64,000 bases of DNA, taken from Tricholomella constricta (Eukaryota > Basidiomycota > Agaricomycetes > Agaricales > Lyophyllaceae). The DNA lies in the NCBI GenBank assembly GCA_013368375.1, contig JAACJP010000010.1, positions 868,001-932,000 of the forward strand. Direction: 5' to 3'. A program made the translations under genes and the position numbers. Positions 50,301-59,997 of this stretch are shown here, one piece after another (positions within the stretch are counted from its first letter, which is position 1; each line of letters opens with the position of its first letter). Under the pieces are notes generated by a model. That model did not search any database and was not told the DNA's origin. It saw nothing but the letters and a program-made list of their open reading frames with translations.

Positions 50301-53300
50301 GGTCTGAAAATATACTCAACACTCCTCAACGGCCCCAAGAGAGAGCTCGACAAGTGCATTGTTCCAGTACCCAGAACGTTGACGAACCTCGCCGTCGCCT
50401 CCCAGCTCCACGACCAGTTACACCGACGCCAACTTCTGGGCACGTTGAACGGATACGGTCCAATGTTCGAGAATCAAGACGGACAGCTCGCGAAAACGAC
50501 TTGCAGGCTTCACCGCGCCGACGACGACCAGCAGTAGTGCAAGATGAAAACCTGCGACCTGGTTTATCCCAGTATACCCAAACCACACAGGCGCAGGTAC
50601 GATTTTTGAACCCGTTTTGTTAAATAAACTAATGTCCTTCTCTTTGGAAAGAATTTCCAGGTCGAAATGTTGAATGGAGCTCGCCCAGTATTGCAAGCTT
50701 CCCGACATCCGAATTTTCCATTATCCCCTCCTTTAACGCAACCGAGGCTGTCGAACAGCCAACCGGGCTGCGAAGTACCACCTTCTGCGAGGTCGGTGGC
50801 ACAACGGAAGCGGCGAGAACGCGAACGAGCTGCAAGACAGCAGGTTGTTTCTGCCATGCCTGTCCCTGCCACTGATTTGAGCGCCACTCAGCCAAGACGA
50901 CGAAGAAATTTAGGAGGTGCACAGCCAAATGCAGGCCCGGTCGTTGGAATGCCCACCATGCCGCGGCTTATACAAGAGCAGGGTGCAATTGGACCAGATG
51001 TTCCGCCAGTTATCGCTCTGGGAGCTCCTCCAACACCTCCAGCGACTCAGCGCCCACCGAACAATAATAGAGGTAGGTCGTATTTCCTTGTATTCTCTTC
51101 GAAGGTCTGATAATCCATCAATAGGCTTTAATGAACCACAAGGCCGCGCAGAGCAGCCGCAAGGCAATGTCGAAGAAAATGGTACCAGACCTTTGGTTTT
51201 AGGTGAAGACTCAAACATGTTACACGTTTAACTGGTGCTCATTTGAATTATGTTTCCAATCTAGGACCGCCACCAGAGGTCATTAGATTAGTACAGCGGA
51301 ATACAGATGCGAGGGGCCAAGATGAAGGTACGTCGTGTGCTTGCCCGTGTTAAGCAATAGCAGTTGACAATGAACCTTTAGGACCTCAGCCTCAGGAGGG
51401 CCAGCAGCGTCAACGACGACGCAGTCGGGAGCTCTTTCGCATTGCCCGTCGACCATATGTTGAACCATCCGAGCGCCATGATCTTGGACGGATGAATGTT
51501 CCGTGTCCTTATTGTGGAGCACTTCATTGGATGGACGAGAGACTTTCGGACAGTTCAAAACGGTCGCCAAGATTTGGAACATGTTGCCTGTCAGGAAAGG
51601 TGCAGCTACCACCTCTTGAAGATGTGCCTCAACCTCTTCGACACCTTCTCACGTCAGAGGACCGTGATGCTGTCAAGTTCCGTGGCGAAATATGGAAGTA
51701 CAACCGAGCATTCGCCTTCACATCATTAGGAGTGGAAGAAGATCACTCTGTCAACCGTGGACGAGGACCTCCTGTATTCCGCATTTCTGGAGAGCTACAT
51801 CATCGATCTGCCGCTCTTGCTCCCTCTGAAGGACGCCCGCCGCGGTATGCTCAACTTTACATCTACGAGCCGTGGGCTGCGCTGGACGCCCGTATGCAAC
51901 AGAATCAGGGTCTGGATCGTCAAGTAATGCGCTCCTTGCAAGATATGTTAACGGCTCACCACCAATATGTGCCTGTCTATCGACATGCATACGAAATCCT
52001 TCAGAATTATAACACTGACAACGATGTTGAGGTTCGACTTCGCGTTAGTCCTGGCCTTGACCGTCGGAGATATAATCTCCCAACAGCGGATGAAGTTGCA
52101 GTGATTCTCCCTGGCACAAACTCAACAGAGCCTCGCGATATTGTCCTCCGGCATCGCGATGGACCTCTCTACCGCATCAGTGACCTCCACCCAGCATATG
52201 TCCCTCTCCAATACCCTTTGCTCTTTTCCCGTGGAGAGAACGGCTGGCATCCGGAGATGACACTTCGGGAGACGGAGGAACAGCAGAATAGCCGTCTTCA
52301 GAACTATCAGCAGCGACGCCAGCGTAGACAAGACCGTGGTTTGGAAGTTGACGAATCCAACAATGCCTCCACGAGGCGTCTGACACTCTCACGTTATGTT
52401 GCTTATCGCATCCACTACCGTCCGCAGGAATTCAACACGCTCCTTCACGGTGGCCGCCTGTTTACCCGGTATGTCGTTGACATGTTTGCGTCAGTGGACC
52501 AGCAGAGACTCCGCTGGATCGAGATGAACCAGCCTCTTTTTAGAGCAGCTCGGTTCAACAACCTTGAAGATGCGGCAGCGGATGACCCCGAAAACCTCGA
52601 CCTCAATGAAATTGGCCAGCGTGTATTTCTTCCATCGTCATACATTGGTGGGCCTCGAAACCTTGGGCAGTGTTACCAGGATTCAATGGCTATAGCACGC
52701 TACTTTCGAAAGGTTGACATCTTCCTCACAATGACGACAAATCCACGTTGGGAAGAAATCGAGAGGGAGCTCCTTCTAGGTCAGACAGCCTACGACCGAC
52801 CAGACTTGGTGGCTAGGGTATTCGAAATGAAGAAAAATGCAGTGCTAGATTATATCTACAAGCACGGTGTTTTCGGTTCTGCCGTTGCTTATGTGTATAC
52901 GATAGAATTTCAGAAACGCGGATTGCCCCACATGCACTGCCTTATCTTTCTTCGAGACCCTGACAAACTCCTAACCCCAGAAGCCATCGATTCGTGCATT
53001 TGGGCACGGTGGCCTGACCCCGAGACGCAGCCCCTCCTTTTCGAGACAGTAAAGAAGTGCATGGTCCACGGGCCTTGCGGTGCTGAGAACCCTAATGCTC
53101 CATGCATGGTCGACAATGGACGAGGTGGCAAGACCTGCTCAAAAGGCTTTCCTAAACTCTTCCAGGAATTCACAACGATGGACGACCACGGGTATCCTTT
53201 ATATTTTCGGCCAAATGATGGAAGAGCTTATGAGGTTAATGGAAGGATGGTCGACAACCGTTGGATTGTGCCATTTCCACCTTTCCTCTGTGCTGAATTT

Positions 53301-55709
53301 GACTGCCACATCAATATGGAATGCGCGGTCACGCTCGGAACCTTCAAATATGCCTTCAAATACGTTTATAAAGGTCCTGACCGTGGTGCTCTAGAACTTA
53401 GGCAGAAAAATGAGGTTAAACGCTGGATTGATGGACGGTACATCTCTCCGCCTGATGCCGTCTGGCGCCTCCTTCATTTTATTACCCACCACCAAGTCCC
53501 AAATGTCGTCCGCCTCCAAGTCCACCTTGAAAATCACCATGTCGTTACCTTCAACCCTGACCATGATCTTCAAACTATCCTTCGACGAGGTGCCAATCAT
53601 CGCACCACTCTTACTGCATGGTTTGAAGCAAATCAAGATCAAGGCCGACTTGGAGAAGAGGCTCGGAAACACACCTATCAGGAGTTCCCACAACACTTCC
53701 GATATGAGCAGAATCAGCGGAAGTGGGTCCTTCGCCAGAAAGGCTTTGCTTTGGGGAGGATGTACTTCATCAAGCCGACATCCGGAGAAATATACTACCT
53801 CCGCCTCTTGCTTACAGTCGTCAAAGGTGCCACATCATTCGACGACCTTCGAAGGGTTCCGGGCTATCGTGATCCATTTCCCACTTTCCATGCCGCCTGT
53901 CTCGCACGTGGCCTCCTCCAGGACGATGGAGAGTGGAGGCTATGTCTCCGGGAGGCATCTGAGATGCAAACTGGAACACGTCTTCGCTATCTTTTTGCAA
54001 CCTTGCTTCTATTTGGAGAGCCTTCGCAACCCAATTTACTGTGGAATGAGTTCAAGGAGCATATTTGTGATGACCTTGCACATCGGTTACGCACCATGGG
54101 AATCCATAATCCATCTAATGATGATGTCTACGATTATGGTCTCCATCTCTTGGATAACGTCCTTCGTGATTCAGGTCGCTCGCTTGGTGAATGGCCATCG
54201 ATGCCTCTACCCCAACAGAATTGGAACCTTTTTGCTATCAATCCTCTCATTGCTGAGCAGCTCAACTACAACCGAGACGCAGAACGAGCTAATCTGGATA
54301 ATCGCCTTCCTCGCTTGAATGCTGATCAGCAGAGTGCATACAATCAGATCATAGCATCAGTCGAGAATAATGAAGGGAGGTTATTCTTTTTAAATGGGCC
54401 TGGAGGGACTGGGAAGACTTTCGTTTACAACACCATCTGTGCAAAGCTACGAAGCGAAGGAACTATTATCCTTTGTGTTTCTTCTTCAGGAATCTCTGCC
54501 CTTCTTATCCGTGGTGGTCGGACTGCGCATTCCATGTTCAAGATCCCAATCGATGGATTAGATGAACACTCAAGTTGCAGTATCCAGAAAAACGGTCAAC
54601 GAGCTGATCTCATTCATGCTACACAGGCTATCATTTGGGATGAGATTGGGGCTCAGCACCGCCATGCTGTTGAAGCTGTGGATCGTACTCTTCGTGATAT
54701 TTGCAGCAACCCCCGGCCGTTTGGAGGCATTACTGTTGTACTTGGCGGTGATTTCCTTCAAACATTGCCTGTCGTTCCAAGAGGTTCCCGCGAGGACATT
54801 GTAGATGCCACAATTCAGCGTTCGGCTCTCTGGGAAAATGCAGAAGTCTTGCACCTCCATGAGAATATGCGACTTGACCGAGGAGATGTGGATGCTCAGG
54901 AATTCGCGCAATGGCTTCTCGAAGTCGGACATGGCCAGAACATGAACGCCAACAGCCAGATCCGCTTTCCAGATGGCATGCCAGTTGACGACCTAGATTC
55001 TCTCATAGCCTCTATCTATCCTGGCATTGACTCGATACCACCTCCACCCCCTGACTACTTCTTGAATCGGATGATTCTTGCACCTCGCAATGCAGATGTA
55101 GGTGACATAAATCAGAAAATTCTCGAATGCATGTCGGGTGAGATCCGCCAATATGTCAGTGCCGACGAGATTATTCGAGAGGCTGGAGCCGATCCTCTGG
55201 ATGATGACCCCATCCCTAATGAATTCCTTCGTTCTGTCCATTCATCAAGCCTTCCACCGGGGGAACTTAACTTGAAGATTGGCTGCCCTGTCATTCTTCT
55301 CCGAAATCTAGCACCCTCTCGGGGTCTATGCAATGGAACTCGCATGGTTATAACACAATTGCGTGATAGGGTTTTGGAGGTGCGGCTGATTGGGGGTGAG
55401 CATGATGGTGAGATAGCGCTGATACCTCGGGTTTCTTTGATTCCATCTGCTTTGTTAGCGGATGTTACTTTTCGATTCAAGAGGCGGCAGTTCCCTGTAC
55501 GACTAGCCTTTGCACTGAGCATAAATAAGGCTCAAGGCCAGTCTGTACGATATGTTGGCCTGGACTTGCGCGGCCCTGTGTTTGCTCATGGTCAGCTGTA
55601 TGTCGCTCTTTCAAGAGCCACATCAAGCCGCAATATTAAAATACTTCTCCCGGATAACACCACAGAATCTCTTGCACATAATGTTGTATATAATGAAGTC
55701 TTAATATAA
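50301..55709 (+). CDS. Helitron Rep-helicase (RepHel), five or more exons
   Basis: Exons ~50301-50596, 50661-51072, 51125-51202, 51265-51327 and 51382-55709; phases agree, giving more than 1700 residues. The initiating exon was not found. The N-terminus is basic and Pro/Gln-rich; a zinc-finger-like CPYCGALHW follows. The rolling-circle Rep domain has FLTMTTNPRW, the metal-binding HUH motif as LPHMHCLIF (52924-52950) and the two-tyrosine motif KYAFKYVYKG (53348-53377). The PIF1-family helicase has Walker A NGPGGTGKT (54395-54421), IIWDEIG, GGDFLQTLPVV, SINKAQGQS and YVALSRATS. No internal stop breaks the 1405 residues after the Met at 51492, so the protein looks functional. It nicks, transfers and unwinds the element's DNA. 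Confidence 0.93.
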
Positions 55710-59139: not shown

Positions 59140-59709
59140 TCATCTCCATCCAGGGGCTCCTGCCTCAGCCTCGCGTTTCCATCCGGGTGCACCGGCCTCT
59201 GCCTCTGCTTCGCGTTTCCAGGCTGGCGAGGCCGCCTCAGCTGCGGCCTCGCGCCTCCATCCGGGGGCACCAGCCTCAGCATGACGTCTCCATCCGGGGG
59301 CGCCAGCCTCACGCCTCCATCCAGGAGCACCGGCCTCACGTCTCCATCCGGGGGCACCAGCTTCAGCCTCACGTCTCCAACCAGGAGGGCCTGCTTCGGC
59401 TTCGCGTTTCCAGCCAGGAGCGGGAGGACCTGCTTCAGCCTCGCGTTTCCAACCAGGAGCACCTGCTTCAGCCTCACGTTTCCAGCCAGGAGCACCAGCT
59501 TCAGCTTCAGCTTCACGTCTCCAGCCAGGTGCGCCAGCTTCGGCTTCGCGTTTCCAGCCCGGAGGACCTGCTTCGGCTTCACGTCTCCAGCCAGGTGCGC
59601 CAGCTTCGGCTTCGCGCTTCCACCCAGGAGGTCCTGCCTCAGCCTCACGTCTCCAGCCAGGAGCGCCAGCTTCGGCCTCGCGCTTCCATCCAGGAGGTCC
59701 TGCTTCTCT
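59140..59709 (-). repeat. Coding minisatellite, about 33 bp per unit
   Basis: The third exon is a tandem array with unit lengths of 27-42 bp in steps of 3. Differences between units fall mostly at third codon positions or add/remove EA pairs, so the protein pattern is conserved while the DNA drifts. Confidence 0.9.
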
Positions 59710-59937
59710 CTAATGACGAGGTCTACCTTCAGTAGCGTTCTATAAAGAAGGGATAACGACGTACTTGTGCGAGTTCGCGCGCCTCCTCGGCATGGCGGGC
59801 GATCACACCATGGTTCTAAAGAGAAGCTCTCGTCAGAGTTACAAAGATGCCGGCGGCAAGAGCGGACTCACAGTGGGCGTAGCACCGGTAAGAGTAAAGA
59901 CAGAGGATGCAATGAGTATCAAGCTTGCGATGCGCAT
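59140..59937 (-). CDS. Secreted Kex2-processed repeat peptide precursor, 17 units
   Basis: Exons 59937-59872, 59815-59765 and 59709-59140 (introns 56 and 55 nt) give 228 residues. Residues 1-22 (MRIASLILIASSVFTLTGAT) form a clear signal peptide. A short acidic/basic pro-region (NHGVIARHAEEARELAQ) follows. The rest is 17 tandem units: 11 GAPGW, four GPPGW, one GPPAPGW and one degenerate ASPAW. They are separated by 16 Lys-Arg or Arg-Arg sites (eight each), nearly all followed by EA, EAEA or EAEAEA; the last unit ends GAPGWR-stop. Dibasic plus Glu-Ala is the Kex2/Ste13 maturation code of yeast alpha-factor and of fungal KEP/dikaritin precursors. Expected products are pentapeptides ending in Trp. 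A TATA-like box lies upstream of the ATG. Whether it is a pheromone-like signal, RiPP precursor or wall peptide is unknown. Confidence 0.9.
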
Positions 59938-59985: not shown

Positions 59986-59997
59986 TTTTTATATTGG
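59986..59997 (-). promoter_or_regulatory. CCAAT/TATA-like promoter of the repeat-peptide gene
   Basis: On the minus strand CCAATATAAAAACC ends about 50 nt before the ATG at 59937. Perfect spacing for a TATA box with a 5' leader of roughly 25 nt. Confidence 0.55.

Follow-up and report, generated by a model that had tools for sequence, protein, structure and literature searches.

Introduction

Precursors known as KEX2-processed repeat proteins (KEPs) carry similar repeated peptides split by KR, RR or KK. In Basidiomycota, alpha-factor-style KEPs with a repeated STE13 signature were reported by Le Marquer in 2019 (PMC6339444), and Trp-ending peptides of agaricomycete KEPs, including GPPAPSW, are described as detected by Vogt in 2022 (PMC9769878). 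According to these and related reports, KEPs average 5.30 per Basidiomycota strain, and KEP-derived peptides with a terminal Trp are recorded from Coprinopsis, Lentinula and Pleurotus (PMC9769878, PMC6339444, PMC7329392). Here we describe a repeat-peptide gene of Tricholomella constricta, located in a 64,000-nucleotide stretch (the window) of contig JAACJP010000010.1, positions 868,001 to 932,000, assembly GCA_013368375.1; this contig is designated C10, and other contigs of the genome are numbered in the same way. The probability is roughly 0.8 that this gene belongs to the alpha-pheromone-like KEPs with Trp-ending peptides seen in agaricomycetes; its role is much less certain. A sequence-only reading made beforehand had called such a precursor unexpected in a basidiomycete, a view not supported by the KEPs published in 2019 and 2022 (PMC6339444, PMC9769878). 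What is new here is the sequence, a paralogue and a proposed trimming stop at Pro in core position 3; the kind of gene was already known in mushrooms.

Coprinopsis cinerea KEP 447393 is reported to give GPPAPSW and DDDPEGPPAPSW in the culture supernatant (PMC9769878). GPPAPSW is one residue of seven from GPPAPGW, the core of unit 9 in the Tricholomella gene, and the two precursors, compared by peptides only, have in common a Trp-ending, Pro-rich core with Pro at position 3. The extended form of the Coprinopsis peptide is acidic and resembles the acidic spacers of the Tricholomella paralogue on C18. The sequence-only reading had also held that GAPGW was unlike any known processed fungal peptide; GPPAPSW tells against this claim. 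The literal GAPGW was not found as a KEP core in the open-access literature (titles and abstracts, subscription journals being mostly outside the search), the papers in which the string occurs being on other subjects. KEP 490115 of C. cinerea is reported to yield QMRPPSW and QYKAPSW upon expression in Pichia, and Pleurotus KEPs 1091723 and 1439342 to yield SGVAADW in fruiting bodies (PMC9769878). Like the Tricholomella gene, these precursors have Kex2 sites followed by XA or XP dipeptides and a C-terminal Trp core; the peptides quoted there differ from the Tricholomella cores in sequence and are without Ala or Pro at position 2, and their trimming would end without Pro at position 3.

When sequences of the PDB were searched up to E 10, the only match, at E 1.5e-8, was to a construct of yeast mating factor alpha-1 and came from the KREAEA pattern. 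Both Saccharomyces cerevisiae MFalpha1 and the Tricholomella precursor have KR and EA repeats before each copy, but the cores are unrelated, and the match is a shared KREAEA processing motif and no proof of common descent. The MF_alpha and MF_alpha_N domains were absent from the precursor in a Pfam scan to E 10. A second outward likeness is to APGWamide, for which a Gly after Trp is the amidation signal. The molluscan APGWamide precursor carries several copies of APGW together with KR cleavage sites (PMC5051934) and thus shares KR sites and an APGW string with the Tricholomella gene, but the animal peptide is amidated, whereas Trp stands directly before K or R, with no Gly after it, in all 17 units of the fungal array. 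An APGWamide-like identity was rejected on this ground. A search for an amidating monooxygenase returned no matches, and the control gave none either. The likeness is almost surely a convergence of a four-residue string, and it is extremely improbable that the string acts on the APGWamide pathway in molluscs that feed on fungi, because the amidation signal is missing.

Organisation of the precursor

The gene lies on the minus strand, and its span from ATG to stop (59937..59140) agrees exactly with the interval given by the sequence-only reading. Removal of two predicted GT-AG introns, both in phase 0, would join three exons into a frame of 228 amino acids. In-frame read-through of intron 2 meets stops, and the model therefore requires splicing. 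The architecture proposed earlier, with a signal-like start, a short pro-region and 17 Trp-ending units, was upheld, the secretion signal being judged by hydrophobicity only (a stretch of 12 residues, residues 3-14, mean hydropathy 2.44). Signal cleavage would probably fall after the last Ala of MRIASLILIASSVFTLTGA in exon 1.

The array contains 11 GAPGW, four GPPGW, one GPPAPGW and one ASPAW core, so that the count of 17 in the sequence-only reading stands but only 15 cores are of the two kinds it had named. Pro stands at position 3 in every one of the 17 cores. The array has the make-up of a KEP, with similar peptides repeated 17 times and split by KR or RR. A dibasic site follows 16 of the 17 units; the last unit has a single R before the stop, and the precursor thus ends in ...GAPGWR with no CAAX motif. 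The STE13 signature, in which X-Ala or X-Pro dipeptides come next to the cleavage site, was present as X-Ala in 17/17 units, comprising 15 EA-repeat spacers (EA, EAEA or EAEAEA), one HAEA and one EAAAEA, with lengths of 2, 4 or 6 residues.

Proposed processing of the precursor

By the proposed route, signal peptidase would admit the precursor to the secretory path, a Kex2-like protease would cleave after KR or RR, and a Kex1-like carboxypeptidase would take off the basic residues so that each peptide ends in Trp. X-Ala dipeptides would then be removed by a Ste13-like dipeptidyl aminopeptidase, which would halt at X-X-Pro. Each precursor would give 17 linear peptides: 11 GAPGW, four GPPGW, one GPPAPGW and one ASPAW. 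Calculated [M+H]+ values are 487.230 for GAPGW, 513.246 for GPPGW, 681.336 for GPPAPGW and 531.256 for ASPAW, and 687.310 and 887.389 for EA-extended forms. The halt is modelled on reports that Xaa-Xaa-Pro N-termini resist all dipeptidyl peptidases (PMC8048996) and that Pro at P1-prime abolished product in a peptide test of human DPP4 (PMC11612144).

A trimming model was applied in which X-Ala and X-Pro dipeptides are stripped until Pro stands third. With the Pro stop, trimming ended on the four cores in 17/17 units; without it, 16/17 units collapsed to PGW. Applied to the C18 paralogue, the same model turned its 17 units into 15 different products. What is informative in this test is that spacer lengths are even and that trimming reaches common end points.

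Candidate enzymes were found in the genome. Two adjacent Kex2-like genes form a tandem pair on C12; both match S8 and the P domain, and in both the frame continues beyond the P domain into a hydrophobic stretch. C16 carries one DPPIV_N/S9 gene preceded by a hydrophobic stretch, and S10 carboxypeptidase matches occur on several contigs. Together with the dibasic sites and the X-Ala spacers, these putative enzyme genes support the alpha-factor-like processing logic that had been suggested for the gene. The anatomy and processing route predicted here are well supported.

Several points weigh against the assignment of the gene as a KEP with this processing route. The introns and expression are predicted, the evidence for the gene being its genome sequence, and a strict branch-point match is absent from intron 2. 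Ahead of the first unit stands a single R in place of a dibasic site. The trimming rule defines the spacer as the part that it removes, so that an all-X-Ala spacer is no independent test, and six-base slippage of a GAAGCN repeat could equally give spacer steps of one dipeptide. The Pro-3 rule is carried over to a fungal enzyme from human, animal and bacterial ones, and for DPP4 itself Pro at P1-prime is described as only moderately detrimental in a linear model, the effect being strong in an interaction model (PMC11612144). The Kex1 and Ste13 candidates were assigned by domain and not by orthology. Finally, six kep knockouts in Coprinopsis are reported to be without visible phenotype (PMC9769878), and therefore no function can be borrowed from that species.

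Two other explanations of the array were considered. In a dikaritin-type ribosomally synthesised and post-translationally modified peptide (RiPP), Kex2 would release the cores, and enzymes of the UstYa family (DUF3328) would then cyclise or oxidise them. The precursor layout is the same, with a signal peptide and Kex2-flanked repeats, Trp might be an oxidisable residue, and the genome has 11 UstYa-family matches, 10 of which exceed the cut-off, distributed over C5, C20 and C65. However, an exon-by-exon search at E 0.001 left C10, C18 and C23, the contigs of the three KEP-like genes, without any UstYa match, and unlike ustiloxin-type dikaritin precursors the C10 gene has EA spacers and no Tyr in its cores. 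The neighbourhood holds 55 open reading frames (31 in window positions 40000-64000 and 24 in the adjoining stretch), and no modifying enzyme was found among the 20 that were scanned with Pfam, a scan in which small exons could be missed; its matches were to part of a tRNA synthetase, to a Helitron and, below threshold, to F-box and HAD. In a published survey, DUF3328 is given as nearby in 103 of 1680 Basidiomycota KEPs (6.1%). The dikaritin alternative raised by the sequence-only reading is weakened by the lack of a UstYa match on C10, and we regard it as improbable. The UstYa groups elsewhere in the genome had no repeat precursor around them in the strict KEP-like scan described below.

It is likewise unlikely that the cores are structural or surface peptides like those of Ustilago Rep1, which belong to hyphal fibrils, made in many copies for bulk and not for signalling. 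The peptides of Rep1 are, to our knowledge, unlike the five-residue cores found here. The high copy number agrees with such a role, and Rep1 is itself a KEP (PMC9769878, PMC6339444), but the STE13 signature is described as missing from Rep1 (PMC6339444) and is present in every unit of the C10 gene.

Coding constraint and paralogous genes

The array is a tandem repeat whose periods include 33 and 66 bases, and three other frames, two on the plus strand and one further on the minus strand, are open over its whole length. Because several frames are open, openness alone is no evidence of coding. The ratio of non-synonymous to synonymous differences per site (pN/pS) was 0.14 in the frame of the gene (15 distinct units), compared with 3.6 and 1.6 for the two sense frames shifted against it, and with 5.0, 0.24 and 2.2 for the frames of the opposite strand; the value of 0.24 is attributed to an antisense frame whose third positions coincide with those of the true one. 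Pairwise differences between units at codon positions 1, 2 and 3 numbered 89, 122 and 569 for the 16 units with W[KR]R (the single-R seventeenth excluded) and 40, 48 and 422 for the 14 canonical units, counts that are not independent events, the units being related by duplication. Synonymous sites were widely varied (pS 0.69), and the array is therefore not freshly expanded. These results indicate that the reading frame of the gene is under coding constraint, for which they are better evidence than an open frame.

Repeat searches from the C10 gene and from a gene on C18 recovered each other, and the C10 query also gave a weak match (E 0.003) to a third Trp-ending KEP-like gene, on C23. Like the C10 gene, the C18 paralogue is laid out in three exons, with two phase 0 introns of 65 and 64 nucleotides. 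It encodes 17 Trp-ending units: nine GAPGW, one GAPDW, one GSPDW and six ending in APPW. Plain EA spacers occur in only three of these, most of the others being acidic and rich in Ser and Thr. A Pfam scan of an early model of the C18 gene gave no match. When 10 GAPGW[KR]R cores of the C10 gene were compared with nine of the paralogue, cores differed on average by 0.11, 0.52 and 3.78 bases at codon positions 1, 2 and 3, the cores having been chosen by peptide, which itself limits differences at positions 1 and 2. As third-position differences dominate, the same peptide is written in the two genes with different third bases.

These comparisons make a non-coding minisatellite, open by chance in several frames, very unlikely. 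The tandem periods and the open frames would suit it, but the third-position bias is specific to the frame of the gene and to the paralogue comparison, and the signal-like exon and intron layout are common to the C18 gene; a minisatellite without coding role is contradicted by the pN/pS test. It is also very unlikely that the gene encodes an Argonaute-binding protein with GW repeats (AGO hook), or some other intracellular repeat protein, and mimics a peptide precursor. In favour of this are 16 PGW and one PAW repeats and a sub-threshold match to RDM3_C (RDM3 carries GW repeats), the only match in the Pfam scan to E 10, which at 24.5 bits against a cut-off of 35 looks compositional, whereas the N-terminal hydrophobic stretch, the dibasic sites at 16/17 units and the X-Ala spacers play no role there.

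The genome of 44.1 Mb was searched for three copies of TGGARRCG with 10-39 bases between copies, the reversed pattern serving as control. This gave 22 matches, 14 in the C10 gene and eight in the C18 paralogue, and none for the control; the pattern does not reach the weaker C23 gene. A scan for KEP-like precursors covered the window and ten stretches (the C10 flanks, C18, C23 and the surroundings of the Kex2, DPPIV and UstYa genes) and found only the C10 and C18 genes and one antisense shadow of the latter; it is strict, overlooked the C23 gene and so cannot prove absence. The C23 repeat appears to run on in another frame near its end, a change that may be an intron or decay, and its core ending in DW recalls the published Pleurotus peptide SGVAADW.

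Mating systems and possible function

STE3 matches were found at six places on C19 and one on C3 (26 exon-level rows grouped), and none on C10. Matches to PF08015 over the cut-off lay on C19, C15 and, counting neighbours, C3, again with none on C10. The presence of both families supports the basidiomycete origin that had been read from the window. A lipopeptide mating pheromone of the basidiomycete type was rejected as an identity for the gene, which lacks a CAAX end while the STE3 and PF08015 matches lie on other contigs, mainly C19; the sequence-only reading was borne out on this point. A genome search for STE2 gave no matches, and the control genomes gave none either. Two weak PF08015 groups, one of them below the cut-off, were observed away from the C19 STE3 cluster.

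Function is the weakest step of the explanation, a secreted non-mating signal or interaction peptide being most likely. Within that assignment, self-signalling is a tentative proposal, and a role in interaction with other organisms is put forward just as tentatively. A more specific and rather doubtful idea is that GAPGW and its variants form a non-mating peptide hormone system served by a receptor of its own, distinct from STE2 and STE3, in which the X-X-Pro start is the stop that fixes the mature N-terminus and the C18 paralogue, with its mostly untrimmable acidic spacers, gives an N-extended ligand. If this were true, the X-X-Pro stop would free spacer length to vary in dipeptide steps while each copy gave the same kind of ligand. 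Titles and the starts of abstracts from 2022 on revealed no further work on what such peptides do in basidiomycetes.

Why basidiomycetes with prenylated mating peptides keep alpha-factor-style precursors is a question raised in both earlier studies (PMC6339444, PMC9769878). The Tricholomella gene offers an unusually clean case, with a high copy number, four defined products, a mechanistic end to trimming and a paralogue with shared cores and different spacers. The processing rule and a search for the receptor are therefore testable with few synthetic peptides.

Positions of the gene and of other features

Table 1 Positions of the peptide gene and other features. Positions without a contig name are those of the window.
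Feature	Position	Strand	Description
Exon 1 (predicted)	59872..59937	-	66 nt; ATG, signal-like stretch MRIASLILIASSVFTLTGA, then TPT
Intron 1 (predicted)	59816..59871	-	56 nt; GTGAGT...TTTAG, phase 0, CTGAC branch-like site
Exon 2 (predicted)	59765..59815	-	51 nt; 17-residue pro-region NHGVIARHAEEARELAQ
Intron 2 (predicted)	59710..59764	-	55 nt; GTACGT...TTAG, phase 0
Exon 3 (predicted)	59140..59709	-	17 Trp-ending units, KR/RR, X-Ala spacers; stop TGA at 59142-59140
TATA-like box (putative, motif match)	59988..59993	-	56 bases upstream of ATG
C18 paralogue	C18:292385-293233	+	66-nt signal-like exon, 15-nt exon 2, repeat exon
C23 gene	C23 around 54287-54499		126 aa as read; RR-EA and KR-EA sites; cores including GPNSDW, SNRDW
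Kex2-like tandem pair	C12:771500-779000
Weak PF08015 group (below cut-off)	C26:6660-9830
Weak PF08015 group	C3:1549144-1552034
UstYa group	C5:888287-893684
UstYa group	C20:174958-185741
UstYa group	C65:105080-105951
Helitron-type transposon gene	51354-55709	+	1451-aa frame; Helitron_like_N, PIF1, Pif1 2B

The Helitron-type transposon gene in the window lies 3.4 kb from the peptide gene.
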